Source: Roseateles saccharophilus
GTDB taxonomy: Bacteria > Pseudomonadota > Gammaproteobacteria > Burkholderiales > Burkholderiaceae_C
Reading direction: 5' to 3'
Assembly: GCF_004342485.1 (NCBI RefSeq)
Contig: NZ_SMBU01000007.1
Location: forward strand, 124,001 to 188,000
DNA: 64,000 bases
Part shown: positions 8,766 to 64,000 of the stretch, in pieces
Numbering within the stretch: the first letter of the stretch is position 1
Layout: every line of letters begins with the position of its first letter
Notes under the pieces: model-generated
What the model was told of the DNA's origin: nothing
The model's database searches: none
What the model saw: only the letters and a program-made list of their open reading frames with translations
Translations under genes and position numbers: made by a program

Positions 8766-8855
8766 CCGAATCCCTCACAGAGTGCGGGCGGAGTTTAGGG
8801 ACGGAAGGCAGGCCTGGCGGACGGAGAAATTCCCCAGGTTCAGGGCCTGGAGGCG

Positions 8856-8957
8856 CTACGGCAGCAGGCCGCTGGCGGGCAGTGTCAGTGCCACGACGAA
8901 GCCGAGCACCGACGCAAGCAGGGCGGCGGCGACGCGGAGTCGGGCGGGCGTGAACAT
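8856..8957 (-). CDS. Possible 33-residue membrane peptide
   Basis: A short open frame beginning MFTPARLRVAAALLAS and ending VALTLPASGLLP, consisting of a basic N-terminus and one hydrophobic stretch, as in small single-span membrane proteins. It lies alone between the macroglobulin start and the AraC gene, on the same strand as both. No convincing ribosome-binding site or family match was recognised, so coding status is uncertain. The rest of 8766-9043 shows nothing else. Confidence 0.3.
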   Translation of the reverse strand: MFTPARLRVAAALLASVLGFVVALTLPASGLLP

Positions 8958-9043
8958 GAGGTGGATAGTGGGCCACAGCGCTGCCCGATGTGCCCCCTAA
9001 CTCGCCGTGATTGCTGACGACGTGCTGGCAGCAGCCACGCGCA

Positions 9044-9958: not shown

Positions 9959-10059
9959 GCCGCGATGCTAGGGCCGGCGGCCTTGCCCCTGCCGTGGTGG
10001 GGGCGACGAAGCGCAGGAATATGCAATCGCGCGGCGGCTTGGAGCCCCATGCTGGCGGC

Positions 10060-12771: not shown

Positions 12772-12791
12772 CGCGCAGCGTCCTCAGAGGA

Positions 12792-13988: not shown

Positions 13989-14025
13989 GGTTGTCTCCAG
14001 TGGTTGATGACCGCGTGGTTGCGGG

Positions 14026-14739
14026 TTAGACGCTGAGCAGCTCGTCCAGCTGGGCCTGGTGGGCGGGCAGGTCGGCTGCGGGGAAGGACAGCACGACCTC
14101 GCCGTGCTCGATGACGATGAAGTGGTCGGCCAGTGGCGCGGCGAAGCGGAAGTTTTGCTCCACCATGACGATGGTGAAGCCCTGGGTCTTCAGCGCGCGG
14201 ATCATGCGTGCCAGGGCCTGGACGATGACGGGTGCGAGGCCCTCGGAGATTTCGTCCAGCAGCAGGATGTCGGCGCCGGTGCGCAGGATGCGCGCGACGG
14301 CCAGCATCTGCTGCTCGCCGCCCGACAGCCGTGTGCCGGGGCTGTGGCGGCGCTCCGCGAGGTTGGGGAACATCGCGTAGATCTCGGTCTCGCTCATGAC
14401 CTTGCCGCGCCTGGCCTTCAGCAGCGGCGGCAGCCGCAGGTTCTCCTCGGTCGTCAGGCTCGCGAAGATGCCGCGCTCCTCGGGGCAGTAGCCCAGACCC
14501 AGGTTGGCGATGCGGTGCGTGGACAGGCCGACGGTCTCGTCGCCATGGACCTTGATCGAGCCCTTGCGGGCGCCCGTCAGGCCCATGATGGCGCGCAGCG
14601 TCGTCGTGCGGCCCGCGCCGTTGCGGCCCAGCAGCGTGACGACTTGGCCCGGCTGCACGCTGAGCTTGATGCCGTGCAGGATGTGGCTCTCGCCGTACCA
14701 GGCGTGGAGGTTGGTGATTTCGAGGGCAGGTGTTGCCAT
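14026..14739 (-). CDS. livF: ABC transporter ATP-binding protein LivF (set 1), Walker A Lys replaced by Arg
   Basis: A 237-residue ATPase of the LivF type: ABC signature LSGGEQQMLAVARIL, Walker B ADILLLDEISEGLAP, H-loop in VMVEQNF. The Walker A motif reads GRNGAGRTTT: the codon is CGC, so the phosphate-binding lysine expected in GxxGxGK[ST] is arginine. LivF of set 2 has the normal GRNGAGKTST. The substitution is conservative in charge, and the rest of the protein is intact, so it may be a natural subfamily variant with reduced or asymmetric hydrolysis. The start was set at ATG 14739 (MATPALEITNL), because residues upstream have no family similarity and lie over livG. Confidence 0.92.
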   Translation of the reverse strand: MATPALEITNLHAWYGESHILHGIKLSVQPGQVVTLLGRNGAGRTTTLRAIMGLTGARKGSIKVHGDETVGLSTHRIANLGLGYCPEERGIFASLTTEENLRLPPLLKARRGKVMSETEIYAMFPNLAERRHSPGTRLSGGEQQMLAVARILRTGADILLLDEISEGLAPVIVQALARMIRALKTQGFTIVMVEQNFRFAAPLADHFIVIEHGEVVLSFPAADLPAHQAQLDELLSV

Positions 14740-14740
14740 G

Positions 14741-15511
14741 TCAGTGAGCCCCCGCCAGCTCGGTCGCCTCGGTGCCCATATAGGCCTCCAGCACCGCCGG
14801 ATGCCTGGACACCGTGGCGTAGTCGCCTTCGGCCAGCACGGCACCACGAGCCAGCACGGTGATGCGGTCGGCGATGCTCGACACCACCTTCATGTTGTGC
14901 TCCACCATCAGCACCGTGCGGCCCTCGGCCACGCGCTTGATGAGGGCGGTTACGCGGTCTACATCCTCGTGGCCCATGCCCTGCGTCGGCTCGTCCAGCA
15001 GCATCAGCTGCGGCTCCATGGCCATCGTCGCCGCGATCTCGAGGGCGCGCTTGCGGCCATAGGGCAGGTCGCCGGCCTTGAGCTGGGCCATGTCGCGCAG
15101 GTCCACCAGCTCCAGCAGCGCCAGCACCTTGGCGTCCAGCGTCTTCAGGCCGGTGAGGCCCCTCCAGAAATGGAAGCTCGTGCCGGTGAAGCGCTGCAGG
15201 CCGATGCGCACGTTCTCCAGCACCGTGAGGTGGGGGAAGACGGCCGAGATCTGGAAGCTGCGGATGACGCCGCGCCGCGCGATCTGCGCCGAGTTCTCGC
15301 CGGTGATGTCGTGGCCCGCGAACACGATGCGGCCGCGCGTGGGCGTGAGGAACTTGGTCAGCAGGTTGAAGCAGGTGGTCTTGCCGGCGCCGTTGGGGCC
15401 CAGCAGTGCGTGGATGTGGCCGCGCTGCACCTGCAGCTTGACCGAGTCCACGGCGGTGAAGCCTTTGAACTCCTTGGTCAGGTCTTGCGTCTCGAGGATG
15501 AATTCGCTCAT
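14741..15511 (-). CDS. livG: ABC transporter ATP-binding protein LivG (set 1)
   Basis: A 256-residue ATPase: Walker A GPNGAGKTTCFNLLT near residue 40, Q-loop IRRGVIRSFQ-type region, a divergent signature LPYGRKRALEIA (LivG proteins commonly have LxYG rather than LSGG), Walker B LMLLDEPTQGM, and the H-loop in VEHNMKVV. It pairs with LivF. ATG 15511 follows the alpha/beta hydrolase stop by 60 bp. I see no promoter in that gap, so it is probably read from the upstream set-2 transcript. Confidence 0.92.
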   Translation of the reverse strand: MSEFILETQDLTKEFKGFTAVDSVKLQVQRGHIHALLGPNGAGKTTCFNLLTKFLTPTRGRIVFAGHDITGENSAQIARRGVIRSFQISAVFPHLTVLENVRIGLQRFTGTSFHFWRGLTGLKTLDAKVLALLELVDLRDMAQLKAGDLPYGRKRALEIAATMAMEPQLMLLDEPTQGMGHEDVDRVTALIKRVAEGRTVLMVEHNMKVVSSIADRITVLARGAVLAEGDYATVSRHPAVLEAYMGTEATELAGAH

Positions 15512-15571
15512 GGACTTTGGGGTTGGCTGCGCGACTCTAGGCCCTGGGACCCGGGGCCGGCTTACGGGCAT

Positions 15572-16417
15572 TCACGGGGTGGCGGCGTCAGCGGCGAGGA
15601 AACGTTCGATCAGGCCGATCTGCTCCGGCGTGTTCAGGGCCGGCGCGTGGCCGCAGCCGGGGATCAACGCCACAGCCGCACGCGGGCCGCGCTCGCGCAT
15701 GGCCTGGGCGGTCTCGGCGGTCAGCAGCGTCGAGTCTTCGCCGCGCAGGCAGAGCACCGGCAGGTCGAGCTGGTCCCAGGCCTCCCACAGCAGATAGTCG
15801 TCGGGGTGGTGCTCGAACTGCGCCACCAGCGCCGGGTCGTAGTGTGTCGTCACGCGGCCGTCGGGCAGGCGGCGCAGGGAGTGTTCCGTCAGGTGGCGCC
15901 ACTGTGTGTCGCTCAGGTGACCGAAGCTGGCGTAGATCTCGCGGAAATAGGCCTCCAGCTCGGTCACCGTCGCGAAGCTTGGCGGCTGGCCGGCATAGGC
16001 TTTTATGCGCACCAGCGCCGGTGCGGCCAGCTCGGGGCCGTTGTCGTTGAGCACCAGGCGGCGGATGCGCCCGCGCAGCCGGGTTGCCGCACCCAGCGTG
16101 CCGATGGCGCCGCCCATGCTCGTGCCCACCCAGTGCACCTTCTGCAGGCCGAGCTGGTCCAGCAGGGCCTCGGCCTGCTCGACGTAGAAGTCCAGGCAGT
16201 ACTCGCGTGCCGGGTCCACGGCCCATTGCGACAGGCCGCGCCCCAGGGTGTCGGGGCAGACGACATGCCAGCGTGCGCTGAGCGCCGTGGCGAAGTCGTC
16301 GAAGTCGCGGCCGCTGCGGGCCAGGCCATGCCAGGCGATGACGGTCGGCGCGCCTGCGTCGCCCCATTCGGTGACGTGCAGCTCGCGGCCCAGGCAGTTG
16401 ACGTAGCGGGACCTCAT
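15572..16417 (-). CDS. Alpha/beta hydrolase embedded in the transporter operon
   Basis: A 281-residue alpha/beta-fold hydrolase. An oxyanion region (VIAWHGLARSGRDFDD) precedes the nucleophile elbow GTSMGG, then a probable acid residue in CLRGEDSTLL and a catalytic histidine in GCGHAPALN. It has no signal peptide, so it acts in the cytoplasm, presumably on an ester, lactone or similar bond in the imported compound. Its ATG overlaps the LivM-2 stop by 4 bases (ATGA), showing translational coupling and a functional link with the importer. The exact substrate is unknown. Longer upstream starts in this frame lie over livM and were rejected. Confidence 0.9.
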   Translation of the reverse strand: MRSRYVNCLGRELHVTEWGDAGAPTVIAWHGLARSGRDFDDFATALSARWHVVCPDTLGRGLSQWAVDPAREYCLDFYVEQAEALLDQLGLQKVHWVGTSMGGAIGTLGAATRLRGRIRRLVLNDNGPELAAPALVRIKAYAGQPPSFATVTELEAYFREIYASFGHLSDTQWRHLTEHSLRRLPDGRVTTHYDPALVAQFEHHPDDYLLWEAWDQLDLPVLCLRGEDSTLLTAETAQAMRERGPRAAVALIPGCGHAPALNTPEQIGLIERFLAADAATP

Positions 16418-17496
16418 GCTTTGACCCTCCTCCCTCGCGTCCAGGCCGCCAGCCGCAGCCGCCCGACGATGCCGCCGGGGAAGTGGTAGACGGCCAGCAC
16501 GAACAGCAGGCCCAGCCACAGCAGCCAGCGGTCGGGCGACACCAGCGTGCTGACGATCGGTACGCCTTCCACCAGGCTGCCGGCCCATTTCAGCAGCGCC
16601 TGCAGATAGTTCTGCGCGACGATGAAGAGCACGCTGCCGATGACGGCGCCGTAGATGGAGCCCATGCCGCCGATGACGACGATGAGCAGCAGGTCCAGCA
16701 TGATCTCCATGCTCATCGCCGTCTCCGGGCCGGTGTAGCGCAGCCACAGCGCCAGCAGTGCGCCGCCGCAGCAGGCCAGCAGGGCCGCGATGATGTTGGC
16801 GCCGGTGCGGTAGACGACAGGCCGGTAGCCGATGGCCTCGGCGCGGAACTCGTTCTCGCGGATGGCCTGCAGCACGCGGCCGAAGGGCGAGTTGACGATG
16901 CGCAGCAGCAGCAGGATCAGCGCGGCCACGGCGACGAACAGCAGGTAATAGGTCAGCAGCCGGCCGTCCAGCGTGACGCCTAGCAGCGGCTCGTCCATGA
17001 ACTCGGTCGAGGGCCGCAGGATCTCGGGCAGCTGGAAGTTCAGCCCGTCCTCGCCGCCGGTGAAGTCGCTCAGCTGCGACGCCAGCGTCATGAAGGCCGA
17101 GGCCACGGCCAGCGTGATCATCGCGAAGAAGATGGCCTTCACGCGCAGGCTGGCAAGGCCCATCGCCAGTGCCAGCACGGCGCTCAGCGCGAGGGCCGCG
17201 GCGAAGCCGATGGCGAGCGACGCCCAGTCCGAACCCAGCCGCGTCGATGCGATCGCGATGCCGTAGGCACCGATGCCGACGAACATCGTGTGCGCGAAGC
17301 TGACGATGCCGGTATAGCCCAGCAGCAGGTCGTAACTGGCGACGAGCAGGATGAAGACGATGATCTTGGCCGCGACGTTCAGCGCCTGCGTGCCGGGGAA
17401 GATGAAGGGCGCGCCGAGCAGGCCGATGAAGCAGGCGATCAGCAGCGCGGCCAGGACGCGGCTGCGCGGCAGGTCGTGGGACAGCAGCGCGCGCAT
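16414..17496 (-). CDS. livM: Branched-chain-type ABC transporter permease LivM (set 2)
   Basis: A 360-residue HAAT permease, larger than set-1 LivM because of an extra loop after helix 5. Landmarks are LLGYTGIVSFAHTMFVGIGA, DFTGGEDGLNFQLP and SPFGRVLQAIRENEFRAEAIG. The basic tail RLRLAAWTRGRRVKA is cytoplasmic. The start codon at 17496 shares one base with the LivH-2 stop (TGATG), a re-initiation arrangement. It is followed by the coupled hydrolase. Confidence 0.92.
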   Translation of the reverse strand: MRALLSHDLPRSRVLAALLIACFIGLLGAPFIFPGTQALNVAAKIIVFILLVASYDLLLGYTGIVSFAHTMFVGIGAYGIAIASTRLGSDWASLAIGFAAALALSAVLALAMGLASLRVKAIFFAMITLAVASAFMTLASQLSDFTGGEDGLNFQLPEILRPSTEFMDEPLLGVTLDGRLLTYYLLFVAVAALILLLLRIVNSPFGRVLQAIRENEFRAEAIGYRPVVYRTGANIIAALLACCGGALLALWLRYTGPETAMSMEIMLDLLLIVVIGGMGSIYGAVIGSVLFIVAQNYLQALLKWAGSLVEGVPIVSTLVSPDRWLLWLGLLFVLAVYHFPGGIVGRLRLAAWTRGRRVKA

Positions 17497-18470
17497 CACT
17501 TGGCTCCCACCGGATAGAGGCCCTGGGGCCGCCACAGCAGGATGGCGACCATCAGCCCGATGTTGGAGAACAGCGCCGCCTTGGGGGCGATGAAGCCGGC
17601 GTAGTTGGCCACCAGGCCCACCAGCAGCGCGCCGACCAGGCAGCCCACGGTGGAGCCCAGGCCGCCGATGATGATGACGATGAAGAGCAGCAGGTTGACC
17701 TGGGCGCCGATCTGCGGCGTGACGCCCTGCTGCACCAGGCCCCACAGCACGCCGCCCAGGCCGGCCAGCGCCGAGCCGGCGACGAAGACGCCGACGAAGA
17801 GGCGCCGGATGCGGTAGCCGAGGGCCTCGACCATCTCGCGGTCCTGCACGCCGGCGCGGATCAGCAGGCCGATCTTGGTGCGGTTCAGCACCAGCAGCAG
17901 CGCGACCAGCACGACGATGCCGATGGCCATCGCCAGCAGGCGGAACTTCTCGACCGCCACGTCGCCGACCAGGAAGATGCCGCGCAGCGTCTCGGGCATG
18001 GGCAGCGGGATGAGCTGGGCGCCCCAGCTCGCCTTGATGAGCTCCTCGCCGATGATCATGCCGCCCATCGTGATGAGGATCTGCTTCAGGTGCTGGCCGT
18101 AGACGGGCCGGACGAGGACGCGCTCGAAGACGACGCCCACGGCGGCGGCGATGGCCATGCCGGCGAGGCAGGCGGCGGCCAGTGCGCTGAGGTTGGCGGC
18201 GACGCTTTCGCTGCTGGCCCAGGGGGCGAGGGCGGCGAGCACGGTGGTGGCCATGAAGGCGCCCAGCGCGATGAAGACGCCGTGGCCGAAGTTCAACACG
18301 TCCATCAGGCCGAACACCAGGGTCAGGCCGGAGGCGATGACGAAGATGATGAGGCCCATGGCGAGGCCGGCCAGGGTCAGGTTGAGCCAGGTGCTGGGGC
18401 TGCCGGTGAGGGGCAGGGCCAGCAGCATCAGCGCGGCGAGGAGGGCCAAGGGTTTGGGGTCGAGTTTCAT
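17496..18470 (-). CDS. livH: Branched-chain-type ABC transporter permease LivH (set 2)
   Basis: A 324-residue permease with an extra N-terminal helix (PLALLAALMLLALPLTG) before the usual LivH core (GLAMGLIIFVIASGLTLVFG, LMDVLNFGHGVFIALGAFMA). The C-terminal loop FIVIIIGGLGSTVGCLVGAL is typical. ATG 18470 (MKLDPKPLALL) was chosen; the frame extends further upstream but without family similarity. There is a 49-bp gap from LivF-2. Confidence 0.92.
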   Translation of the reverse strand: MKLDPKPLALLAALMLLALPLTGSPSTWLNLTLAGLAMGLIIFVIASGLTLVFGLMDVLNFGHGVFIALGAFMATTVLAALAPWASSESVAANLSALAAACLAGMAIAAAVGVVFERVLVRPVYGQHLKQILITMGGMIIGEELIKASWGAQLIPLPMPETLRGIFLVGDVAVEKFRLLAMAIGIVVLVALLLVLNRTKIGLLIRAGVQDREMVEALGYRIRRLFVGVFVAGSALAGLGGVLWGLVQQGVTPQIGAQVNLLLFIVIIIGGLGSTVGCLVGALLVGLVANYAGFIAPKAALFSNIGLMVAILLWRPQGLYPVGAK

Positions 18471-53686: not shown

Positions 53687-54190
53687 ATGCTGAGACTCCT
53701 GTTCGCCCCGTTGCGCTGGCTCTTCCGGGTCGTCTTCGCGCTGCTCATCCTGTTCGAGGAATGGGGCTGGGAGCCGCTGCGGCGGGCCTTTGCGCTGCTG
53801 GCGCGGCTGCCGGTCATCCGGCATGTCGAGGCCCTGCTGCGCCGCCTGCCGCCGCGCTGGGCCTTCGTCGTGCTGCTGCTGCCCAGCCTGTTCATCCTGC
53901 CCATCAAGCTGCTGGCCGTCTGGTTCGTCGCCAGGGGCCATGTCGTGTTCGGCGTTGCCGTCATCGTCGCGGCCAAGGTGGGCGGCACGGCGCTGCTGGC
54001 CTGGCTGTTCCAGCTGATCCAGCCGGCGCTGATGCAGCTGCCGTGGTTCGCCCGCTTCTACGCGCGCTGGACGGGCTGGAAGGCCGAGCTGCTGGCCTGG
54101 GTGAGGGCCAGCGCGGTGTGGCGCACGGCGCGCGCGATCAAGCTGCGCCTGCGGCGCTGGTGGCGGGGGCGGTCGCAGGCGCCGCGGTGA
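53687..54190 (+). CDS. Hypothetical membrane protein
   Basis: A 167-residue protein with about three hydrophobic segments (LLFAPLRWLFRVVFALLILF, WAFVVLLLPSLFILPIKLLA, VAVIVAAKVGGTALLAWLF) and a basic tail (IKLRLRRWWRGRSQAPR). It resembles uncharacterised inner-membrane proteins often found after tgt in Burkholderiales; no function is known to me. Its 3' end overlaps the convergent kinase gene by 53 bp. Confidence 0.75.
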   Translation: MLRLLFAPLRWLFRVVFALLILFEEWGWEPLRRAFALLARLPVIRHVEALLRRLPPRWAFVVLLLPSLFILPIKLLAVWFVARGHVVFGVAVIVAAKVGGTALLAWLFQLIQPALMQLPWFARFYARWTGWKAELLAWVRASAVWRTARAIKLRLRRWWRGRSQAPR

Positions 54191-56387
54191 GGCGCAGCCG
54201 CAGCGTCGCGGTCGTGCCGCGGCCGGGCTCGCTGCGCAGGTGCAGGCTGCCGCCCATCAGCTCGACGATCTCCTTGACGATGGCCATGCCCAGGCCGGTG
54301 CCGGGGATGGCGCCGGACTTGTCCGCGCGGTAGAAGCGTTCGGCCGCGCGCTCCAGCTCCTGCGGCGTCATGCCGATGCCGTGGTCCTCGATCTCGATGT
54401 CCACATGCCCGGGCCCGTTCGGCGCCACGCGCAGCGCGACGCCGCCGCCGCCCGGCGAGTACTTGTAGGCGTTGGACAGCAGGTTGCGCAGGGCCTGGCC
54501 GAGCTTGCCGGTGTCGACGTGCACCCACAGCGGCGCCTCCGGCAGCGCGAGGGCCGGCGGCTCGCGGCCCTCGGGCACGCCGAAGTCCCCGACCGTCTGG
54601 CGCACCAACCCCTGCAGGGCGGCGGGGCGGAACTGGAAGTCCAGCGCGTGGCGCGACTCGATGCGCGCCAGGTCCAGCAACTCGTCGAGGATGTCCATCA
54701 TGGCGCGGCTCTGGCGGTGTACGCGCTGCAGCAGTTCGCGCTGGGTCTTGGGCGGGTGCTCGCGGTGGATCAGCAGCTCGGTGAAGCCGAAGATGCTGGT
54801 CATCGGGGTGCGCAGCTCGTGGGCGGCCGTGGTCAGGAACTCGCTCTTCAGCCGGTCCACCTCGAACTGCTGGCTGACGTCGCGGATATGCAGCAGCTGC
54901 GGCGTCTCGGCGCCGCCGCCGTCGTGCAGCGCGAAGGACAGGATGCGCGGCATTGGCCGCGCCATGCGCATGATGCGCGGCTCGTCGCGCAGCTCCTGCA
55001 GGCGCAGCGGGCGCTGGGTGCCGGCCTCCGCAAAGCGGCCCTGCAGCAGGTCCTCGAGGCCGGCCTCGTCGCGGCCGAGAACATCGCGGTCGGCCAGCGC
55101 GGTCAGCAGCGCGCAGGCCGGGCTCACGTATTGCACGCGGCGCTCGGCATCGAAGGAGATGAAGCCGTCGGGCGTCAGGTTGAAGATGGCGTGCAGCTGG
55201 TCGGTCTGGCGGCGCAGCCGCGCGACCATGTCACCGACCTGGCGCGACAGCTGCTCGATGGCATTGCTGTGGGCGGCCGATGGCGCCGAACCGGCAGAGC
55301 CGAGCAGCTCGCTCATGGCCTGCATCGCGTGAGCGCGGGTGTCGAGCTCGGCGCGCAGCCGGTCCTCCAGCGCCTGCTGCTTGCTCACGTCGCGCAGCAC
55401 GAGCACGGCACCGGCCGCCTCGCCCTGCTCGGAGCGCACCGGCGCCAGGCTGGCCTCCAGCACCTGCTCGCCGCGCTCGAAGCGCCGGCCCTGCCAGCCG
55501 GTGTCGGCCGCGGGGTCGATGTCGAGCTCGGGCAGCAGCTCGGCGACGGCCCGGCCCAGCAGCGCGGGGCTGCTGCTGCCGAGCAGGCGGCCGAGCACGG
55601 GGTTGGCGAGCACGACGTCGCCGGCCCGATTGACGGTGGCGACGCCCTCGGCGATGGAGGCCAGCGTGACGGCGGCCTGGGCGCGTTCGGCCTGCAGCGA
55701 GGCGGCAACCTGGTTGACGATCTCGAAGGTGCGCTGGAACTCCAGCGGGGCCTCGTCGGTGCGCATCGGCTGGATGGCCTGGCCGCCCCCCTGCTGCAGC
55801 CGTGCGCCGAGGTCGCGCACGCGGTCGAGCTGGCCCAGCCAGCGCCGCAGCGGCCACCACACCAGCGCGCCGCCGGCGAGCGTTCCGACGACGGAGAACA
55901 GCATTGCCAGGCGCACCACCTGCCAGATGTCGGCCGCGATGCGCTCGCCCCACGGGGTCAGCCGCGTGACGCCGTAGTCGCGCCCGCCGACGGAGATGGT
56001 GGCGTTGGCCGGCTCGAGCTGTGCGGCGATGCGTGCGACCAGCCAGTCGGGCGGCGTGGGGCTGGGGTGGTCCTGGCGCACGACCTCGATGCGCCCGCCC
56101 TTGAGGTCGATGAAGGCGGCGCGCTGGAACAGCGGGTGGGCGATGGCGCGGTCCAGCGTGCGCTTGATGGTGTCGTAGTCGCCGATGACGGCCGAATCCG
56201 CCATGGCCGGTGCGAGCATGGCCAGCATGGCCTGCGAATCGGCCTCGGCGTCCTCCAGGCTCGAGTTGAACTCATAGGCGATGAAGATGCCGAAGGCCAG
56301 TGTCACCAGCAGCGTCAGCGCGGCCATGTAGAGCAGCAAGACGCGGCCGACCAGGGAGCGCGGGAACAGGGCGATGAAGGCGGCCAT
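54138..56387 (-). CDS. PAS-containing sensor histidine kinase
   Basis: A 749-residue membrane kinase. Two transmembrane helices (about 10-35 and 160-182) flank a periplasmic loop; two PAS-like domains follow (about 235-350 and 395-520; LHAIFNLTPDGFISFDAERR). The HisKA box is FLTTAAHELRTPMTSIFGF, and the ATPase part has NLLSNAYKYSPGGGG, IEDHGIGMTPQEL and GTGLGMAIVKEIVELMGG. There is no receiver domain and no response regulator nearby. It starts 3 bases after the stop of a PhnD-like binding protein, which probably presents the ligand to its periplasmic loop. Upstream extension of the frame to 58871 lies over other genes. Confidence 0.92.
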   Translation of the reverse strand: MAAFIALFPRSLVGRVLLLYMAALTLLVTLAFGIFIAYEFNSSLEDAEADSQAMLAMLAPAMADSAVIGDYDTIKRTLDRAIAHPLFQRAAFIDLKGGRIEVVRQDHPSPTPPDWLVARIAAQLEPANATISVGGRDYGVTRLTPWGERIAADIWQVVRLAMLFSVVGTLAGGALVWWPLRRWLGQLDRVRDLGARLQQGGGQAIQPMRTDEAPLEFQRTFEIVNQVAASLQAERAQAAVTLASIAEGVATVNRAGDVVLANPVLGRLLGSSSPALLGRAVAELLPELDIDPAADTGWQGRRFERGEQVLEASLAPVRSEQGEAAGAVLVLRDVSKQQALEDRLRAELDTRAHAMQAMSELLGSAGSAPSAAHSNAIEQLSRQVGDMVARLRRQTDQLHAIFNLTPDGFISFDAERRVQYVSPACALLTALADRDVLGRDEAGLEDLLQGRFAEAGTQRPLRLQELRDEPRIMRMARPMPRILSFALHDGGGAETPQLLHIRDVSQQFEVDRLKSEFLTTAAHELRTPMTSIFGFTELLIHREHPPKTQRELLQRVHRQSRAMMDILDELLDLARIESRHALDFQFRPAALQGLVRQTVGDFGVPEGREPPALALPEAPLWVHVDTGKLGQALRNLLSNAYKYSPGGGGVALRVAPNGPGHVDIEIEDHGIGMTPQELERAAERFYRADKSGAIPGTGLGMAIVKEIVELMGGSLHLRSEPGRGTTATLRLRLTAAPATAPATSAAGAA

Positions 56388-56389
56388 GC

Positions 56390-57223
56390 TCAGCGGAGCT
56401 GCGGCGGGGCGCTCTGGTAGAAGCGCCGGTAGGCCGCGTATTCGCGGCCATCGGAGGCGACGAAGACGGCGTCTGGCGGCAGGCCGATGAGCTTGCCGGT
56501 GGTGGCCAGGATCTCGCGCCCGCGCGGGTCGGCGGCCATGCCGATGAAGGCGCGGGCCACGGCCTGGGCATCGCGCTCGGGCACCTTGGGCGAGACCATC
56601 AGTGCGAGATCGTAATAGGGCTCGGAGGTCCACAGTACGCGGAACTGCCGGCCCTCGCGCCTGGCATAGCCCTCGACCAGCTGCGAGTTGGCCCCCACCG
56701 CCGCCACCTTGCCGCTGAAGAGCTGGGCGAAGGCGCCGTCCATGTTGCCGCCGAAGACGGTGCGCACATCGAGCTTGCGCTGCAGCATCTGGGCGTAGGT
56801 GGTCTTGTAGGCGATGAAGGCCTCGGGGCCGGGGAAGCCGACCTCCTTGCCTTGGAGCTGGCCGAGTTCGGTGATGGGTGAGTCGGCCGCGACGACGATC
56901 TGGCCGTGCAGAGGCGGTGTGTTGCGCCGGCCGAAGACCTTCCAGCCGAGCTGCTCGCGCTCCGGGCTGAAGAGATGGTTGGTGAAGGCGAACTCGACCT
57001 CCTGGGCCAGCACGAAGGCGGTCGTGTCGGCCGAGGTGCGGCCGAGCTTGAGCGAGAGCTTCACGCCGCTCTTCTCGGACACATAGGACACGATGGGGTT
57101 CCAGTAGGACGCCGCCGTCGTGAGATTGGCCTGGTTGACGGGTGAGAAGCGGTATTCGGTCTGGGCGCCGGCCGGCAGGGCCATCGCCAGGGTGGCCAGC
57201 AGCGAGAACAGGGCCTTCATCAA
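56390..57223 (-). CDS. PhnD-like phosphate/phosphonate-type binding protein
   Basis: A 277-residue protein with a signal peptide (KALFSLLATLAMALPAGA) and the PhnD/TauA-like fold: RFSPVNQANLTTAASYWNPI, TAFVLAQEVEFAFTNHLF and GKEVGFPGPEAFIAYKTTYA. No permease or ATPase gene is adjacent. Its coupling to the sensor kinase (stop 56390, kinase start 56387) indicates a sensory rather than transport role. The ligand (phosphonate, phosphite or another anion) is unknown. Confidence 0.87.
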   Translation of the reverse strand: MMKALFSLLATLAMALPAGAQTEYRFSPVNQANLTTAASYWNPIVSYVSEKSGVKLSLKLGRTSADTTAFVLAQEVEFAFTNHLFSPEREQLGWKVFGRRNTPPLHGQIVVAADSPITELGQLQGKEVGFPGPEAFIAYKTTYAQMLQRKLDVRTVFGGNMDGAFAQLFSGKVAAVGANSQLVEGYARREGRQFRVLWTSEPYYDLALMVSPKVPERDAQAVARAFIGMAADPRGREILATTGKLIGLPPDAVFVASDGREYAAYRRFYQSAPPQLR

Positions 57224-57376: not shown

Positions 57377-58840
57377 TCAGCGGGCCGGCGCGGCGCTGGC
57401 GATCGGGATCTCGCGCCGGCGGCGGGCCTGGTCCAGCCCGCGCTGGATGCGGCCGAGCTGCAGGGCGCGCTCGTCGCGGTGGAAGAGGTTGTAGGCCTCG
57501 AAGGGGATGAGGCGGCCGTCGGGTCGGGCGATGTGGATGCAGCTCTTCTTCAGCGCGCGGATGTCCAGGGACTGGGCATCCATGAACTGCACGATGAGCA
57601 CGCGGAAGACGTCGCGATAGCTCAGGCGCGGCGCCTCGATCCTGGGCAGGCAGCACAGCAGCTCCGACAGGCAGCTGGACTGGCTCTCGGGCGAGTGGTT
57701 GGTGGAGAACAGCTTGAAGACCTGGGCCTTCAGCGCCGGGTCGCCCTCGAAGACGATGGTGCTGCGCTCGCCGGCCAGCAGCGTGGCGGCGTCGAGATAG
57801 CGGGTCAGCGGCACCAGGCCTTCGGGGCCGCCAGGATTGCGAAGGGCATAGGCCATCGCCAGCGTGTCGGGGTTGCAGGGCACGGGCAGCACGTCGGCCG
57901 GCGTGAACACGCCGCTCTGCTCGGCGATGCGGCGGCGCAGTTCGCTGACGGTCAGGCGGTGCTTCGCCGGGTCGTAGGCCTCGACGCGGCCGGCGTTCTG
58001 GATGGGCTGCAGCGTCACGCCGCGCACGCAGGAATAGCGCTGGCCATGGCGGATCACGTCGCCGATCTCGTCGTCGTTGACGCCGCGCTTGACGGTCATG
58101 ACCAGCGTCGTCGACAGGCCCAGCGCGTCCAGCCGGGCCAGTGCTGCTTCGTGCGGGCCGCGCAGGTCGGCGCCGCGCAGGTCCATCAGCGCCTCGCGTT
58201 TGAGCGAGTCGAACTGCAGATAGACCTCCAGCCCCGGCGCATAGCTGGCCAGGCGCTCGGCGAAGGCGGCGTCCTGGGCGATGCGCAGCCCGTTGGTGTT
58301 GACCATCAGATGCTTGATGGGTCGGGCGCGGGCGGCGTCGAGGATGGCGAAGAACTCGGGGTGCAGCGTCGGCTCGCCGCCGGAGATCTGCACCACGTCG
58401 GCCTCGCCCTCGCTCGCGACGATGGCGTCCAGCATCGCGACGACTTCTTCGAGCGAGCGGTGCGAGAGCCGCTCCGGCCCGGAGGCGGCATAGCAGGTCG
58501 GGCAGCGCAGATTGCAGTGGTCGCTGATCTCGACGATGGACAGGCAGCTGTGCTGCATGTGGTCGGGGCAGAGGCCGCAGTCGTAGGGGCAGCCGTAGGT
58601 CATCGGCGTCGCGAAGCGCTGCGGCATCTCGGGCGGCTTCACATAGACCTCGCGGCACAGGCGGTAGTAGTCGGCGTCGTCGCTGACCAGCACGCGCTCG
58701 GTGCCGTGGGCCGGGCACCATTTGTCCATGTAGACCCGCTCGTCCTTGATGAGGATCTTGGCCTCGCAGGGGTGCAGGCAGGTCGTGCAGACGGACTGCG
58801 TGGTGTCGTAGAACAGATAGGGGCGGGTCTTGCGGTTCAT
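57377..58840 (-). CDS. Radical SAM enzyme of the MJ0619/tetraether-synthase-like family
   Basis: A 487-residue iron-sulfur enzyme. The radical SAM motif is C109-x3-C113-x2-C116 (DHCNLRCPTCY), followed by the SAM-binding GGEPTLHPEF. The N-terminus is cysteine-rich: C18-x2-C21, C25, C42 (WCPAHG), and a second CX3CX2C at C84/C88/C91 (TYGCPYDCGLCPDH). 'CPYDCGLCPxH' together with the N-terminal zinc-ribbon/rubredoxin-like cysteines is characteristic of the family containing archaeal MJ0619, a synthase that joins lipid tails. A further CC pair (LLCCLPR) occurs near residue 400. The ATG overlaps the Lgt-like stop (ATGA). The substrate is probably a lipid or lipid-linked molecule, inferred from family and operon; membership is by motif only. 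Confidence 0.85.
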   Translation of the reverse strand: MNRKTRPYLFYDTTQSVCTTCLHPCEAKILIKDERVYMDKWCPAHGTERVLVSDDADYYRLCREVYVKPPEMPQRFATPMTYGCPYDCGLCPDHMQHSCLSIVEISDHCNLRCPTCYAASGPERLSHRSLEEVVAMLDAIVASEGEADVVQISGGEPTLHPEFFAILDAARARPIKHLMVNTNGLRIAQDAAFAERLASYAPGLEVYLQFDSLKREALMDLRGADLRGPHEAALARLDALGLSTTLVMTVKRGVNDDEIGDVIRHGQRYSCVRGVTLQPIQNAGRVEAYDPAKHRLTVSELRRRIAEQSGVFTPADVLPVPCNPDTLAMAYALRNPGGPEGLVPLTRYLDAATLLAGERSTIVFEGDPALKAQVFKLFSTNHSPESQSSCLSELLCCLPRIEAPRLSYRDVFRVLIVQFMDAQSLDIRALKKSCIHIARPDGRLIPFEAYNLFHRDERALQLGRIQRGLDQARRRREIPIASAAPAR

Positions 58841-59574
58841 GCGGGAACGGGAGGTGCTTGCCGTGCGCCACGCACGACGACGGGCAGGTAGGCGGCCAGA
58901 GCGACGAGGCAGGTCCACTGGATGCCCGACAGGCCCAGCGGAAACGCGACGGGGACGGGCTTCAGGAACTCGACCGCGAAACGCCACAGCAGATAAGAGC
59001 TCAGGAAGAGCTTGAAGGCCAGGCCCGGTGTTGCGAAGCGTGCGCGGTACAGCGCCCAGCCCAGCGGCAGCACGACGGCGATCTCGTAGAGCTGGGTCGG
59101 ATGGCGCGGCGTGCCGTCACCGAAGTCCACGCCCCAGGGCAGGTCGGTCGGCAGGCCATAGGTGTCGTCATGCAGGCCGGCGAGGAAGCAGCCGATGCGG
59201 CCGATGGCGAGGCCTACGGCGATGGGCCACACCATCGCGTCTCCGGTGCTGCGGGTCTGGCCGGTGAGCTGCTTCGCGATCTCGACGCCGACGAGGCCGC
59301 CGAGCAGGCCGCCGACGATGCTCTGGCCGGGCCACAGCGCCTGGCCTCGCCAGGCGGCCAACGCGACGTCGGGGCGCTCGATCAGGAAGACGAGCTTGTT
59401 GCCGATGGCGGCGCCAAGCAGCAGACCGACGAGGACCGCGAAGTTGCCGGGCGCCAGCACGCCGTCCCCGCCCAGGCGGCGCTGCGTTGCCCGCCACATC
59501 GCCGCGCCCAGAGCCATGCCGGCCCAGGTGAAGGCGCTGTGCACCCAGGCGCCGGTAGTGGCGTCGGCGATCAC
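58837..59574 (-). CDS. Lgt-like prolipoprotein diacylglyceryl transferase family protein
   Basis: A 245-residue integral membrane protein with about seven helices. It shows Lgt family landmarks: GRIGCFLAGLHDDTYGLPTD, PWGVDFGDG, and RHPTQLYEI (H-P-x-Q-L-Y). Canonical Lgt transfers diacylglycerol from phosphatidylglycerol to lipoproteins, but this copy is shorter, lacks the usual N-terminal arm and sits in an operon of lipid-related genes. It is therefore more likely a specialised paralogue than the housekeeping enzyme. The start is GTG 59574, overlapping the previous stop by 4 bases (GTGA). Confidence 0.85.
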   Translation of the reverse strand: MIADATTGAWVHSAFTWAGMALGAAMWRATQRRLGGDGVLAPGNFAVLVGLLLGAAIGNKLVFLIERPDVALAAWRGQALWPGQSIVGGLLGGLVGVEIAKQLTGQTRSTGDAMVWPIAVGLAIGRIGCFLAGLHDDTYGLPTDLPWGVDFGDGTPRHPTQLYEIAVVLPLGWALYRARFATPGLAFKLFLSSYLLWRFAVEFLKPVPVAFPLGLSGIQWTCLVALAAYLPVVVRGARQAPPVPA

Positions 59575-59813
59575 GGCTGAGGCTTGAACAGCCGCCACAG
59601 CCTGCGTCCGGCCCACCATGTCAGCACCCCGCCGCCAATCAGGCAGGGGACCGAAAAGATAAGGACAACCGTACCGTAGCTGTTGGGGCCTTGGCGGAAG
59701 ATGTCCGGCACGGCGCTCACGGTGAACACGGTTCCGCACAAGCCCATCGCGCCGAAGCCCAGCGTGGCGACCGCAAGCAGGGCAATCGTGAAGAAGCGTT
59801 CGAATTGGCTCAT
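59571..59813 (-). CDS. Small two-helix membrane protein
   Basis: An 80-residue protein with two hydrophobic segments (FFTIALLAVATLGFGAMGLC and YGTVVLIFSVPCLIGGGVLT) and a basic end (GRRLWRLFKPQP). No family recognised. It is joined by 4-nt overlaps on both sides (ATG 59813 over the acyltransferase stop; stop over the Lgt-like GTG), so it belongs to the lipid operon, perhaps as a scaffold or subunit. Confidence 0.8.
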   Translation of the reverse strand: MSQFERFFTIALLAVATLGFGAMGLCGTVFTVSAVPDIFRQGPNSYGTVVLIFSVPCLIGGGVLTWWAGRRLWRLFKPQP

Positions 59814-61804
59814 GCCGCGGCCTCCAGCAAGCCGAGAACACTCGTTTGAAGGCCTTCTGGCGACACGCTGGCGGCAGGTGCGGGCGTGCCCACGCTCAGG
59901 CTCACCCGGCTCCAGAACCCGCGCCGCACTGGCTTGACCATCGCTCGGCCGCCTTCGACGCGCGAGAAATAGCTGCCCCACAGATTGCCCAGGGCCATCG
60001 GGATGACGGGCACGTCGGGCAGGCCCTCGACGAGCTTCATGACGCCGCCCTTGAAGGGCTGCAGCGCGCCGTCGCGCGTGATGCCGCCCTCGGGGAAGAT
60101 GCAGACCATCTCGCCGTCCTCCAGCACTGCGCGGGCCGCGGCGAACGCGGCCTCGTAGGTGGCCGGGTCGGTCTTCTGTGGCGCGATCGGGATGGCCTTG
60201 GCGAGCCTGAACATCCAGCCCAGCACTGGCGTCCTGAAGATCTGGTGGTCCATCAGGAAGCGGATGGGGCGGGGGCTGGCGGCCATCAGCAGCACGGCGT
60301 CGACGAAGCTGACGTGGTTGCAGACCAGCACGGCCGCTCCGGCGGTGGGCAGGCGCTCGTCGTGCACGATGCGGAAGCGATAGACCAGGCGCGTCAGCAC
60401 GAAGGCGACGAAGCGCAGCAGGTACTCGGGCACGATCAGGAAGATGTAGGCCGCGACGACCGCATTGGCGATGCCGACGGCCAGGAAGACCTGCGGGATG
60501 GACAGGCCCGCGCCCAGCATCGCGCCGGCGATGACGGAGCTGGCGATCATGAAGACCGCGTTCAGGATGTTGTTGGCCGCGATGATGCGGGCGCGGTGCG
60601 TGGGCTGGGCGCGCAGCTGGATCAGCGCATACATCGGCACGCTGTACAGGCCGGCGAACAGGGCCAACGCGCCCAAGTCCGCCAGCACGCGCCAGTGCGC
60701 CGGCAAGACCAGGAAGCCGCCCACGCTGTAGGGCTCGCTCGCGGGCAGGCCGGTGGAGGCGAAGTAGAGGTCGATGGCGAACACGCTCATGCCGATGGCG
60801 CCCAGCGGCACGAGGCCGATCTCGACATGGCGCTTGGACATGACCTCGCACAGCAGCGAGCCGATGCCGATGCCGATGGAGAACACCGCCAGCAGCAGCG
60901 ACGCGACCTGCGGGCCGCCGTGCAGCACCTCCTTGGCAAAGGCCGGGAAGTTGGCGAGGAAGACGGCGCCGAAGAACCACATCCACGAGATGCCCAGCAG
61001 CGAGCGGAACACGGCCACGCCCTCGTGCGCGAGCTTCAGGTTGCGCCAGGTCTCGGAGACGGGGTTCCAGTTGATGACGAGGCCGGCGTCGGTGGACGGG
61101 CTGGCCGGGATGGCCTGGGCCGTGGCGCGGCCGGCGATGGCGAGCCCCATGCAGGCCCAGGCGACATGCTGCGGCCCGACGACGGCCTGGTCCACCAGCA
61201 CGCCGCCGAGCAGCTGACCGAGCAGGATGGCGACGAAGGTGCCCATCTCCACCATGCCGTTGCCGCCGGTCAACTCGCGCTCGTTCAGCTGCTGCGGCAG
61301 GTAGGCGTACTTGACCGGGCCGAACAGCGTCGAGTGCAGGCCCATCAGGAAGACGCACAGCAGCAGGGCCGGCACATGGGTGGCATAGAAGCCCCAGCCG
61401 GCGATGGCCATGATGGCGATCTCCAGGCTCTTCACGAGCTGCATCAGCCGCGCCTTGTCGTGCTTGTCGGCGAGCTGGCCGCTGGTGGCCGAGAACAGCA
61501 CATAGGGCAGGATGAACAGCGCGCCGATGACCAGGCCCGCCATCTTGGGCGGCAGCCATGCCAGCTGCAGCTGGTAGGTGATCATCAGCGTGAACGCGAA
61601 CTTGAAGACGTTGTCGTTCGCGGCGCCGAGGAACTGCGTCCAGAAGAAGGGCGCGAAGCGGCGCTGGCCGAGCAGGGCGAACTGGTTCGGGTGAGATGGC
61701 ACCCCTCGACCGACGAAATCGTCGGCCGATCCCCCGAGGGGATGCGGGCCCGCTTGGGGGCGGCCCGGCGCTGGGCCCTTTGGCGTCATGGAGTCGTTGC
61801 TCAT
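59810..61804 (-). CDS. LplT-like transporter fused to 1-acylglycerophosphate acyltransferase
   Basis: A 664-residue two-domain inner-membrane protein. Residues about 45-440 are a 12-helix major-facilitator domain (FFWTQFLGAANDNVFKFAF, GPVKYAYLPQQLNERELTGG) like the lysophospholipid flippase LplT. Residues about 450-650 are a PlsC-type acyltransferase with NHVSFVDAVLL (HxxxxD) and VCIFPEGGITRDG. The combination imports and re-acylates lysophospholipids, as Aas/LplT do. No AMP-ligase (Aas) domain is present. The first 40 residues are low-complexity and partly coded by an interspersed repeat. The start ATG 61804 overlaps the DUF2145 stop (ATGA). Confidence 0.9.
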   Translation of the reverse strand: MSNDSMTPKGPAPGRPQAGPHPLGGSADDFVGRGVPSHPNQFALLGQRRFAPFFWTQFLGAANDNVFKFAFTLMITYQLQLAWLPPKMAGLVIGALFILPYVLFSATSGQLADKHDKARLMQLVKSLEIAIMAIAGWGFYATHVPALLLCVFLMGLHSTLFGPVKYAYLPQQLNERELTGGNGMVEMGTFVAILLGQLLGGVLVDQAVVGPQHVAWACMGLAIAGRATAQAIPASPSTDAGLVINWNPVSETWRNLKLAHEGVAVFRSLLGISWMWFFGAVFLANFPAFAKEVLHGGPQVASLLLAVFSIGIGIGSLLCEVMSKRHVEIGLVPLGAIGMSVFAIDLYFASTGLPASEPYSVGGFLVLPAHWRVLADLGALALFAGLYSVPMYALIQLRAQPTHRARIIAANNILNAVFMIASSVIAGAMLGAGLSIPQVFLAVGIANAVVAAYIFLIVPEYLLRFVAFVLTRLVYRFRIVHDERLPTAGAAVLVCNHVSFVDAVLLMAASPRPIRFLMDHQIFRTPVLGWMFRLAKAIPIAPQKTDPATYEAAFAAARAVLEDGEMVCIFPEGGITRDGALQPFKGGVMKLVEGLPDVPVIPMALGNLWGSYFSRVEGGRAMVKPVRRGFWSRVSLSVGTPAPAASVSPEGLQTSVLGLLEAAA
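61701..61780. repeat. Interspersed dyad repeat inside a coding sequence
   Basis: Nested inverted repeats: CCCCTCG (61702-61708) with CGAGGGG (61735-61741), enclosing CCGACGA (61710-61716) with TCGTCGG (61719-61725); the segment continues through GATGCGGGCCCGCTTGGGGG. This kind of element is normally intergenic in Burkholderiales. Here it provides roughly codons 9-35 of the transporter-acyltransferase gene without breaking the frame. Confidence 0.6.
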
Positions 61805-62583
61805 GGCTTGACCGGTTGCGGTGGTTCGGACAGGTTCGCGCGCGGCAGCCAGGCAAACATCGAGTCCACGGTGACCGTGTCGATGTGGCTGGTGAAGCGG
61901 CGCGCGCTCGGATGATCGTCGAAGGCGATGTTGGCCTGGGTCATGCGCCCGCCGAGGCGGGTCAGCGTGGACAGGTGCAGGTCGGTGGGCTGGTAGCCCT
62001 GGGCGCGCAGCCAGGCCTGGGCGTCGCGGCGGGTGGCCAGGCCCGGCGCGGCCGCGCCGGCCAGCGTCTCCAGCACCCACTGGTTGCTCTGCTGATAGGT
62101 CGTAGCGAAGGGGTAGGCCACCATGCTGTAGCGGCGCTCGTTGAAGCGCGCCACGCGGGCGTTGTCGGTCAGCACCGGCAGCAGGGCCTGCTGCAATTCG
62201 GGCTTGAGCGCGACATAGGCGGCGTCATAGCGGTAGGGCTTGTCCATGAAGAACTCGCCCAGGCCCTGGCGGTACAGGGCCGCGTGGTCGGTGCCGCAGT
62301 GGTTGAGCTTGTGCATCACGCGCCAGACGGCGGGCTGTTGCGTCGTGTCTTTGTAGACGAAGCCCAGGTGGGACCACTGCAGGCCGTACTTGGAGAGATC
62401 CTGGCCGGCGCGGGCCAGCAGCACGACCTGGGCGCCACTGGCGTCGAGCTGGCGGGCCGTGGCCTGGGCGAGGGCCAGGCCCTGCTCGACCTGGCGAACC
62501 GTCTGCGGCTTCTCCTCGCAGGGCCGGCCGGCCTGGGCTGCGGCCGCTGCGGCGAGCAGCAGCAGGGCAGCGATGCGTTTCAC
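61801..62583 (-). CDS. DUF2145 family exported protein
   Basis: A 260-residue protein with a signal peptide (RIAALLLLAAAAAAQAG). The mature domain contains VVLLARAGQDLSKYGLQWSH, HLGFVYKD, LNHCGTDHAALYRQGLGEFF and MVAYPFATTYQQSNQWVLET, the pattern of DUF2145. The conserved H, C, N and Q residues resemble NlpC/P60-like cysteine peptidase or amidase/acyltransferase folds (inference). It is probably periplasmic. Both ends carry 4-nt overlaps with neighbours. Confidence 0.85.
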   Translation of the reverse strand: MKRIAALLLLAAAAAAQAGRPCEEKPQTVRQVEQGLALAQATARQLDASGAQVVLLARAGQDLSKYGLQWSHLGFVYKDTTQQPAVWRVMHKLNHCGTDHAALYRQGLGEFFMDKPYRYDAAYVALKPELQQALLPVLTDNARVARFNERRYSMVAYPFATTYQQSNQWVLETLAGAAAPGLATRRDAQAWLRAQGYQPTDLHLSTLTRLGGRMTQANIAFDDHPSARRFTSHIDTVTVDSMFAWLPRANLSEPPQPVKP

Positions 62584-63005
62584 CGGCTGACCTGCTCGTT
62601 GTAGAGCAGGGCCTTGCCGATCTCGTTGGGGATGAAGGCGATGACCTCGCCCGCCACCGACAGCACGGTGCCCGCGCCGATGACCGAGACGGTCACCGCG
62701 GCGCCGGTCGACACGACGACGCCCCTGGCCAGCTGGCCCGAAGTGCGCAGGCTGATGCGCACGCCGTCGGAGGCCCGCTCCAGCACCCAGACGGTCGCGC
62801 CGCCGACCACCTCGACGCTGACGACGGTCAGCGTGACGCCCGCGGCCAGGATGGCCGACGGCGCGACGCTGAGGGCCGCGCCGGTGGCGCTGACGGCCAT
62901 GACGGACAGGGCGACCGGCGCGACCGAGATCGCGCTGAGCTCTGACTGGGCCTGCGCGCAGGACAGGGCCAGGGACAGGGTGAGGGCGGCGAACAAGGGC
63001 TTCAT
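62580..63005 (-). CDS. Hypothetical exported protein, first of the lipid operon
   Basis: A 141-residue protein with a signal peptide (LFAALTLSLALSCAQAQ) and a valine/alanine/serine-rich hydrophobic middle (SVAPSAILAAGVTLTVVSVE, GAAVTVSVIGAGTVLSVAGE) ending FIPNEIGKALLYNEQVSR. Small weakly hydrophobic segments could associate with the membrane. Not recognised as a named family. Its stop overlaps the DUF2145 start (ATGA). Confidence 0.7.
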   Translation of the reverse strand: MKPLFAALTLSLALSCAQAQSELSAISVAPVALSVMAVSATGAALSVAPSAILAAGVTLTVVSVEVVGGATVWVLERASDGVRISLRTSGQLARGVVVSTGAAVTVSVIGAGTVLSVAGEVIAFIPNEIGKALLYNEQVSR

Positions 63006-63027: not shown

Positions 63028-63492
63028 TCACTGGGCTTCGGCGCTGGCGGCCATCGCCTCGCGGCGGCCCTGCAGGCGGGCCTCGAACAGGTCGGCCTCG
63101 TGGGCGTCGCGCAGCATCTTGGCCAGCGTGAAGACGTTGGAGATCAGGTAGAGCCAGCAGACGCCGAGGTAGGCCTTCCAGACCGGCTGTATCTCCATGC
63201 GCCACAGGCCCCAGCCCGTCAGGCCCATGGCCAGTGCGAAGCCGCTCCAGACGACGAGGCGCCACATCGGCGTGTCTACCTGGCGGTCCTGGTTGTCGCG
63301 GATGAACTTGGCCAGCGCGAAGGCGGTGGACAGGCAGAACACATAGCCCATCACCATGAAGGCGCGGTCCAGGTCGGCGCCGGGCAGCCAGGCCAGGCCC
63401 GAGCCGCACAGCATCACGCTGATGGCGAAGGACACCCAGACCTGGAGGCGCCAGGCGCCGGTGTCGCGACGGATGACGGGAGCGTTGGCCAT
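63028..63492 (-). CDS. YiaA/YiaB-like inner-membrane protein
   Basis: A 154-residue protein with two similar two-helix units: WVSFAISVMLCGSGLAWLPG with MGYVFCLSTAFALAKFIRDN, then VWSGFALAMGLTGWGLWRME with LISNVFTLAKMLRDAHEADL. This duplicated hairpin is the YiaA/B pattern; no function is known. ATG 63492 (MANAPVIRRD) was chosen, but the frame is open to ATG 63606, which overlaps the upstream amidohydrolase stop (ATGA), so a 192-residue product is possible. The 22-bp gap to the next gene suggests loose linkage with the lipid operon. Confidence 0.72.
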   Translation of the reverse strand: MANAPVIRRDTGAWRLQVWVSFAISVMLCGSGLAWLPGADLDRAFMVMGYVFCLSTAFALAKFIRDNQDRQVDTPMWRLVVWSGFALAMGLTGWGLWRMEIQPVWKAYLGVCWLYLISNVFTLAKMLRDAHEADLFEARLQGRREAMAASAEAQ

Positions 63493-63602
63493 GTTGTCGT
63501 CGTGTGACCGGCTGTTGCGATGGGCGCGATCTTGCGTGATGCCTGCGAAGGCCGGCTCGGGAATAGTGCCGAGGCGCACGGCGAGCGCCGCGAGGTAGCG
63601 TT

Positions 63603-64000
63603 TCATGCGCCCGATGGGCGTTCGAAGTGGGGGCGGGTCGCGAAAACGGGCGCGGTGAAGGCGGCACCGCGCCAGCGCGCGAGGCGCTTGAGGGCCAGGT
63701 CGAAGAGCAGCGGGTTGTGCTCGCGCAGCCGTTCCAGCGCGGGCGCATCGGTGGCCTCCAGCAGGCCCGCGCCGACCAGGGCGGGCAGGCGGATCGCGGC
63801 CGGGATGCCGGGCAGCGGGTAGTCCGAGCCATGCAGCAGGCGCGGGTGCCAGTCCTCGCGTGCCAGCAGCATGCGGGCGACATCGGGCCCGCGGTTGGCC
63901 TGCAGCACGACGGAGACATCGCCCAGCAGCCGGCCGCCCCAGTCCTCGTCCATCAGCCGGGCGAACAGCGAGAAGGAGCTGGCCGGGCGCGGGCGCCCGC
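63603..64000 (-). CDS. Amidohydrolase family protein, C-terminal part
   Basis: The 3' end (about 131 codons) of a minus-strand gene that continues beyond the window. The visible part contains LLHGSDYPLPG, with the aspartate expected to bind the catalytic metal in TIM-barrel amidohydrolases of the Amidohydro_2 type, followed by helices ending DLALKRLARW. The substrate is unknown, and the remaining metal ligands lie outside the window. Confidence 0.75.
   Translation of the reverse strand, partial: GRPRPASSFSLFARLMDEDWGGRLLGDVSVVLQANRGPDVARMLLAREDWHPRLLHGSDYPLPGIPAAIRLPALVGAGLLEATDAPALERLREHNPLLFDLALKRLARWRGAAFTAPVFATRPHFERPSGA

Follow-up and report, generated by a model that had tools for sequence, protein, structure and literature searches.

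A tetraether synthase relative encoded beside a divergent Lgt paralogue in Roseateles saccharophilus and other bacteria

The tetraether synthase Tes (or GDGT-MAS; MJ0619, PDB entries 7tol and 7tom) is the lipid-joining radical S-adenosylmethionine (SAM) enzyme of archaea, in which, according to a passage of PMC9433317, an intermediate is bonded to the sulfur of one cluster. Bacterial homologues of Tes have been reported with function unproven (passages of PMC8941075 and PMC11868695), and the passage in the second paper gives their roles as not assessed. One or both of the Solibacter homologues have been proposed to make branched glycerol dialkyl glycerol tetraethers (brGDGTs; passage of PMC10087280). 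Mss, a bacterial membrane-spanning lipid synthase, is a radical SAM protein with Tes architecture as described in part of PMC13274423. Here we analyze a 64,000-nucleotide stretch of the Roseateles saccharophilus genome (contig NZ_SMBU01000007.1, positions 124,001 to 188,000; “the window”), which encodes a Tes relative (defined as “TesX”) beside a paralogue of Lgt (defined as “LgtX”). The likeness of Mss to TesX is one of description only.

The linkage of TesX to LgtX, the separate TesX clade and the residue changes in both proteins are firm observations. By sequence, TesX and LgtX are variants of known enzyme families. The operon centers on a small gene set that recurs in many bacteria and in some marine archaea. 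With an altered relative of Tes, this set probably modifies either a membrane lipid or a protein with a lipid anchor. A gene pair that may or may not be TesX-LgtX is mentioned once in print, for Pseudarthrobacter, without interpretation in the passage concerned (PMC12010503). No other treatment of the pair was found in the open-licence PMC literature, where one query was narrow and required five terms jointly.

TesX and the tetraether synthases

The predicted structure of TesX (mean pLDDT 86) matched PDB 7tom over its whole length with a TM score of 0.77, and 7tol alike, in agreement with the kinship to the MJ0619/Tes fold proposed in a preliminary description of the locus. The next different fold match reached a TM score of 0.36, and maturases of ribosomally synthesized and post-translationally modified peptides were far behind the lipid enzyme.

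Among curated NCBIfam profiles, the best match to TesX (P0001) was TrsS, a radical SAM (seleno)protein (NF045646), with 303.4 bits and an alignment near the full profile length, versus 249.8 bits for Tes (NF045702). This ranking would fit a role in a non-lipid pathway, as TrsS may have, with LgtX as a scaffold. However, TesX is under both NCBIfam cut-offs (490 bits for TrsS and 450 bits for Tes), and other scanned members of its clade are also under that of TrsS, the 53 clade members being judged by a best E-value of 7.6e-102. None of 369 genomes held a TrsS sequence over 490 bits. As LgtX keeps the residues of the phosphatidylglycerol pocket (see below), we consider a TrsS-like role distinctly unlikely. 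An identification of TesX as TrsS itself was rejected on the distance to the cut-off, in a comparison made by profile only.

In a tree of 135 sequences, including 30 archaeal Tes-profile proteins, TesX falls in a clade apart from archaeal Tes. The clade comprises 96 sequences with support of 0.90, 99 with three sister sequences (0.99) and 103 when L013, L014, L035 and L036 are added (0.999). For the Tes profile, the best E-value among the 53 clade members was 4.6e-89, which we judged to be about 300 bits from L093 (298 bits, E-value 1e-88). The alignment of this profile to TesX and the other members tested singly stops at about position 335 of 486.

Residues were counted over 96 TesX rows, three of which are repeats. 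The ligands of the SAM cluster (CX3CX2C; C109, C113 and C116) and of the N-terminal cluster (C84, C88, C91 and H94) occur in 96/96 rows, as do C18, C21 and C42 of the rubredoxin-like site, which is completed by H45 in 93/96. The SAM-closing loop (Q278, G284 and R285) is the same as in Tes. In contrast to these shared sites, the C-terminal ligands of Tes are mostly replaced. Three of these are cysteines inferred from conservation in 30 Tes sequences, and Met439 was taken from a passage of PMC9433317. The equivalents of C455 and C470 were found in 0/96 TesX rows and that of the first cysteine in 22/96; Met439 is kept in 40/96 and Tyr459 in none. TesX has C322, C396, C397 and C434 instead, of which C322 and C434, like a further cysteine (C99), are in all 96 rows and C396 and C397 in 93. 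Because the Tes intermediate is bonded to cluster sulfur, this change bears on the chemistry of TesX.

A role of TesX in genuine tail-to-tail coupling, making membrane-spanning (diabolic-acid-type) lipids in bacteria with LgtX and a small membrane protein delivering or positioning the lipids, is rather unlikely. This reading draws on the Tes fold over the whole length, the shared SAM loop and the published E-value and identity thresholds for a “Tes homologue”, within which TesX falls against an archaeal Tes (31.6% over 478 amino acids, E-value 8.7e-62 by blastp with an assumed database size of 1e11), although this query came from the present analysis and differs from that of the paper. It conflicts with the absence of C455, C470 and Tyr459 equivalents from all 96 rows and of Met439 from 56, and with the early end of the Tes-profile match in members tested singly. 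The preliminary description had taken the protein for an MJ0619-type lipid-joining enzyme; with TesX in a separate clade, under the 450-bit cut-off and without most inferred C-terminal ligands, this assignment was abandoned and TesX was rejected as a Tes.

Some Tes-type proteins outside the TesX clade differ in other ways. Two from Acidobacteriota (L166 and L167) fall among archaeal Tes on a long branch, a placement weaker than it appears as their N-termini were cut in the tree input. At full length (L166:5133-7223; L167) they keep the rubredoxin-like site and the C-terminal cysteines and lack the C/C/C of the N-terminal cluster; judged by sequence, this is the reverse of the TesX pattern. In L024, also outside the clade, a cluster (5344-18116) encodes two Tes/TrsS-like radical SAM paralogues together with a radical SAM/SPASM protein, a flavin oxidoreductase, an LPG-synthase-type membrane protein, two class-III aminotransferases and two short-chain dehydrogenases. 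The three inferred C-terminal cysteines of Tes are retained in the Tes/TrsS-like paralogues, and a similar pair is found in L172.

LgtX and its linkage to TesX

The Lgt kinship of the membrane protein, also part of the preliminary description, was confirmed by Pfam (LGT, 94.7 bits; cut-off 24.9) and by a model (mean pLDDT 94) whose only fold match at E-value ≤0.001 was E. coli Lgt (5azb, TM score 0.57). Against TIGR00544 it scored 32.8 bits, under the cut-off of 118.9. In E. coli Lgt, variants of H103, R143 and R239 fail to complement, and R143 and R239 are located at the transfer site (passages of PMC4728403). R126, Y194 and R198 of LgtX, which correspond to R143, Y235 and R239, are invariant over 84 rows (three are repeats). 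Unlike in Lgt, the position of H103 in the HGGL motif is occupied by V (70), L (7), I (6) or a gap (1), that of N146 in the Lgt signature is Cys in 84/84, and E98 and K101 are new invariants. From their positions, the last two are expected close to where the third helix ends on the cytoplasmic side, and might dock TesX. Three sister-clade and three archaeal-phylum proteins have the same residue set. Given the loss of H103, the Cys at N146 and the TIGR00544 score, LgtX was rejected as an Lgt; the genome has a second Lgt, of canonical type, elsewhere (G000:C3, 255 bits).

We searched 399 Burkholderiales genomes for both proteins. TesX matches occur in 11, ten of them at ≥54% identity (window included), while the eleventh (G152) has two more distant paralogues with 35% and 30% identity. 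LgtX occurs in 10 genomes, 9 of which also have TesX (Fisher p = 1.5e-16); the exceptions are G236 with TesX only and G052 with a weak LgtX only. A tblastn search with nine window proteins as queries placed LgtX beside TesX in 8 of 10 Burkholderiales neighborhoods. The two without an adjacent Lgt-like gene are a short contig (L023) and the G152 locus (L024). In the same ten neighborhoods, tblastn gave no match to the LplT-PlsC, DUF2145 or small genes of the window.

A scan of GTDB genomes detected at least 577 TesX relatives of any closeness, and the best 80 of these were kept. As labelled, they come from Proteobacteria, Bacillota, Acidobacteriota and Myxococcota, with one each from Planctomycetota, an Elusimicrobia metagenome-assembled genome (MAG) and an Omnitrophota MAG, and three from archaeal MAGs. 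Genes were called in 91 stretches including the window with a home-made caller, which set some starts wrongly; 90 stretches yielded rows, three of them repeats (one locus under two ids), and there are 88 different loci overall. Both genes were called in 80/88 loci, so the link within the operon between the radical SAM enzyme and the Lgt-like protein is conserved. They share a strand in 76 of these 80, with a gap of ≤50 nucleotides in 54 of the 76. Counted by rows, LgtX is ≤4 genes upstream of TesX in 82/90 and directly upstream in 65. The eight loci without a called pair are L024; L023, L043 and L083, near contig ends; L061, L070 and L105, where no LgtX was called; and L058, whose TesX gene was detected by the genome scan and missed by the caller. 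LgtX is also present in 3/3 sister-clade loci. TesX and LgtX distances correlate over 76 loci (Spearman 0.56; best of 200 shuffles 0.11), which shows co-inheritance only.

In Acidobacteriota (the phylum of G768, Paracidobacterium), LgtX was found in 11/149 genomes. Nine of the 11 have a Tes-profile match within 3 kb on the same contig; in G968 the match is on a different contig, and G899 lacks one. Tes-profile matches at an E-value of 1e-40 are far commoner than LgtX in this phylum (87/149 genomes, 26 of them over the cut-off). Several other partial Tes-profile matches, among them those in G997 and G1000 and second matches in G980 and G1007, could belong to the Tes or TesX clade alike and have no adjacent LgtX. 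G767 and G768 each encode a full-length Tes-type match and TesX in the same genome.

A candidate three-part membrane module

A small membrane protein with a conserved cysteine often accompanies the pair. Among small hydrophobic proteins encoded on the same strand within four genes, a hydrophobic stretch precedes Cys-Gly or Cys-Phe in 63/86, versus 13/72 of those farther away; as the loci behind this comparison are related, its p-value is optimistic. A scripted count found the protein in 49/87 loci, and a looser motif with judgement by eye added 19, for a soft count of 68/88. The upstream form has about 80 amino acids and G-x-C-G after the first helix, and the downstream form about 100 amino acids and A-A-C-F-G after the last. 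In the latter, Ala directly precedes Cys in 20/30 and stands at -2 in 19/30. Lys and Arg positions suggest that the Cys end faces outward. Only 1 of 46 small proteins matched a Pfam family (E-value ≤0.001).

We tentatively propose, as one possibility suggested by homology, gene linkage, residue changes and the small Cys protein, a three-part membrane module in which an unusual acceptor receives diacylglycerol through LgtX and TesX modifies a lipid chain. Its details, from membrane topology and donor to acceptor, reaction order, chemistry and product, are inferred. LgtX, an inner-membrane Lgt paralogue, would transfer diacylglycerol from phosphatidylglycerol to the acceptor, for which the conserved Cys of the small protein, or a lipid that this protein holds, is the most likely candidate. 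Cytoplasmic TesX would then abstract hydrogen from a lipid chain of the product and couple or otherwise modify that chain, at a C-terminal iron-sulfur site whose cysteines differ from those of Tes. LplT-PlsC may recycle a lysolipid by-product in some betaproteobacteria. A more specific version seems very improbable to us: LgtX would attach diacylglycerol to a Cys in an uncut transmembrane helix of the small protein and TesX would join the chain of that lipid to a second lipid or to the protein. The result would be a lipoprotein covalently stapled across the membrane of bacteria, and perhaps of some marine archaea if another acceptor is used there.

Several observations weigh against the three-part module. 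LgtX lacks H103, which is needed in E. coli Lgt, and also N146. Judging from the alignment, TesX lacks at least two of the inferred Tes cluster ligands, and Tes-like C-C coupling may therefore be impossible; the stretch of its model that holds C396 and C397 (372-402) is poorly resolved. A proper lipobox, usually with Leu at -3, is missing from the small proteins: the downstream form has its Leu at -4, and its -3 position is Asn in 12/30; the upstream form has Leu at -1 in 26/39. We rated the module lower because of this shift. No small Cys protein was seen in 20/88 loci, including the three archaeal ones, and L041 and L075 each have one small protein without Cys.

Alternatively, the small Cys protein could be a peptide substrate of TesX, as in radical SAM peptide maturases, with LgtX adding the lipid. 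The small protein is fast-evolving, is encoded two or three times next to the pair in L039, L065, L089, L101 and L111, and has the Cys in 69/71 aligned sequences, as such a substrate might. On the other side, Pfam found no SPASM domain in TesX, among solved structures a lipid enzyme comes nearest, with the peptide maturases far behind, and no such small protein was seen in 20/88 loci. We give the peptide-substrate reading little credence.

The operon, its accessory genes and other carriers

The window encodes the six minus-strand open reading frames listed in the preliminary description (Table 1), joined by five 4-nucleotide overlaps (GTGA at 62580-62583, ATGA at 61801-61804, ATGA at 59810-59813, GTGA at 59571-59574 and ATGA at 58837-58840). 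The preliminary description gave a GTG start for LgtX, and the DUF2145 gene has one as well. Pfam upheld the domain labels: DUF2145 (268 bits), a PlsC-type acyltransferase and a major facilitator superfamily domain in one protein, LGT, and Radical_SAM with an HMPTM N-terminal zinc ribbon. The 141-amino-acid protein had no match in Pfam or NCBIfam profile searches. The genes and overlaps thus stand, and the extent does not: the operon is longer by an upstream YiaA-like gene, which ends 22 nucleotides before the gene for the putatively exported protein, and then by an amidohydrolase gene that overlaps it by ATGA (63603-63606) on the same strand.

Table 1. Genes of the operon, in window numbering.
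Feature	Position	Strand	Remarks
TesX, radical SAM enzyme, 487 aa	57377..58840	-	Tetraether synthase relative; altered C-terminal Cys set C322, C396, C397, C434
LgtX, Lgt-like membrane protein, 245 aa	58837..59574	-	GTG start; R126, Y194, R198 kept; V87, C129 at H103, N146 positions
Small membrane protein, 80 aa	59571..59813	-	Cys26 at end of first hydrophobic helix; candidate third component
LplT-like transporter and PlsC-like acyltransferase fusion	59810..61804	-	Without acyl-ACP synthetase domain; accessory
DUF2145 protein	61801..62583	-	GTG start; accessory
141-aa protein with apparent N-terminal signal sequence (by eye)	62580..63005	-	Accessory
YiaA/B-type membrane protein	63028..63606	-	Start uncertain; likely same operon
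Amidohydrolase, 3′ part of gene	63603..64000	-	Gene runs past window end to 64826

The six genes are not the conserved set, and the six-gene operon was rejected as the functional unit that had been supposed, since the accessory genes are near the module in a minority of rows: LplT-PlsC is ≤5 genes away in 14/90, DUF2145 in 6/90 and the exported protein in 4/90. Over all loci they have 16, 7 and 7 members. An order confined to this genome, which the preliminary description named as a refuting outcome, was not what we found: DUF2145, LplT-PlsC, a small membrane protein (or two), LgtX and TesX follow one another in 6/90 rows, window included.

The fusion protein combines LplT-like and PlsC-like domains as in LplT/Aas recycling, but it has no acyl-acyl carrier protein (ACP) synthetase domain. 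It scored 517 of the 1349 bits required by NF005291, and its alignment to that profile ended at position 594 of 1140. A bystander role of LgtX and TesX in an ordinary system for re-importing and re-acylating lysophospholipids would explain the presence of the fusion in the operon and that of an Aas-like protein with PlsC and AMP-ligase domains close to the module in six loci (L042, L044, L046, L049, L051 and L063; domains confirmed in L042, 3738-5882, only). We regard this as extremely unlikely, as LplT-PlsC is within five genes in 14/90 rows versus 82 for LgtX within four.

Other neighbors recur in subsets of loci. A relative of the amidohydrolase gene is directly upstream of LplT-PlsC in L042, L049, L051 and L056. 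Upstream of the amidohydrolase gene is a divergent helix-turn-helix gene (L185:2470-3225), a possible regulator with close relatives in L037-L040. A 2-oxoglutarate-Fe(II) oxygenase-type gene lies just upstream of the module in L065 (8440-9138), L068, L069 and L074, with the domain confirmed in L065 only. Downstream of the window operon, on the same strand, a phosphonate-type periplasmic binding protein gene overlaps a PAS histidine kinase gene (54138-57223); neither has a clustered neighbor counterpart in the other loci compared.

The TesX-LgtX pair also occurs in three MAGs labelled as marine archaea or euryarchaeote. In L184 (the L113 region), an aNOP56-type gene (174 bits, under the cut-off of 452) about 2.4 kb from LgtX makes the contig look archaeal, and a gene for an IcmF-type fused isobutyryl-CoA mutase (L184:9638-12970) is near the module. 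No Tes match over the cut-off was found in the three archaeal genomes, although as MAGs these may be incomplete. One putative Tes homologue was reported among 231 marine group II (MG-II) MAGs (passage of PMC8941075), and it may belong to the TesX family.

The function of bacterial “Tes homologues” is an open question of the brGDGT field. Members of the TesX clade pass the thresholds by which such homologues are named, yet their C-terminal cluster residues differ and an Lgt paralogue adjoins them in 80/88 loci. No tetraether capacity should be read from hits of the TesX type before these residues have been checked. The findings also define a compact module open to testing, present in bacteria that include many cultured ones and in archaeal MAGs in which no Tes match exceeded the cut-off.

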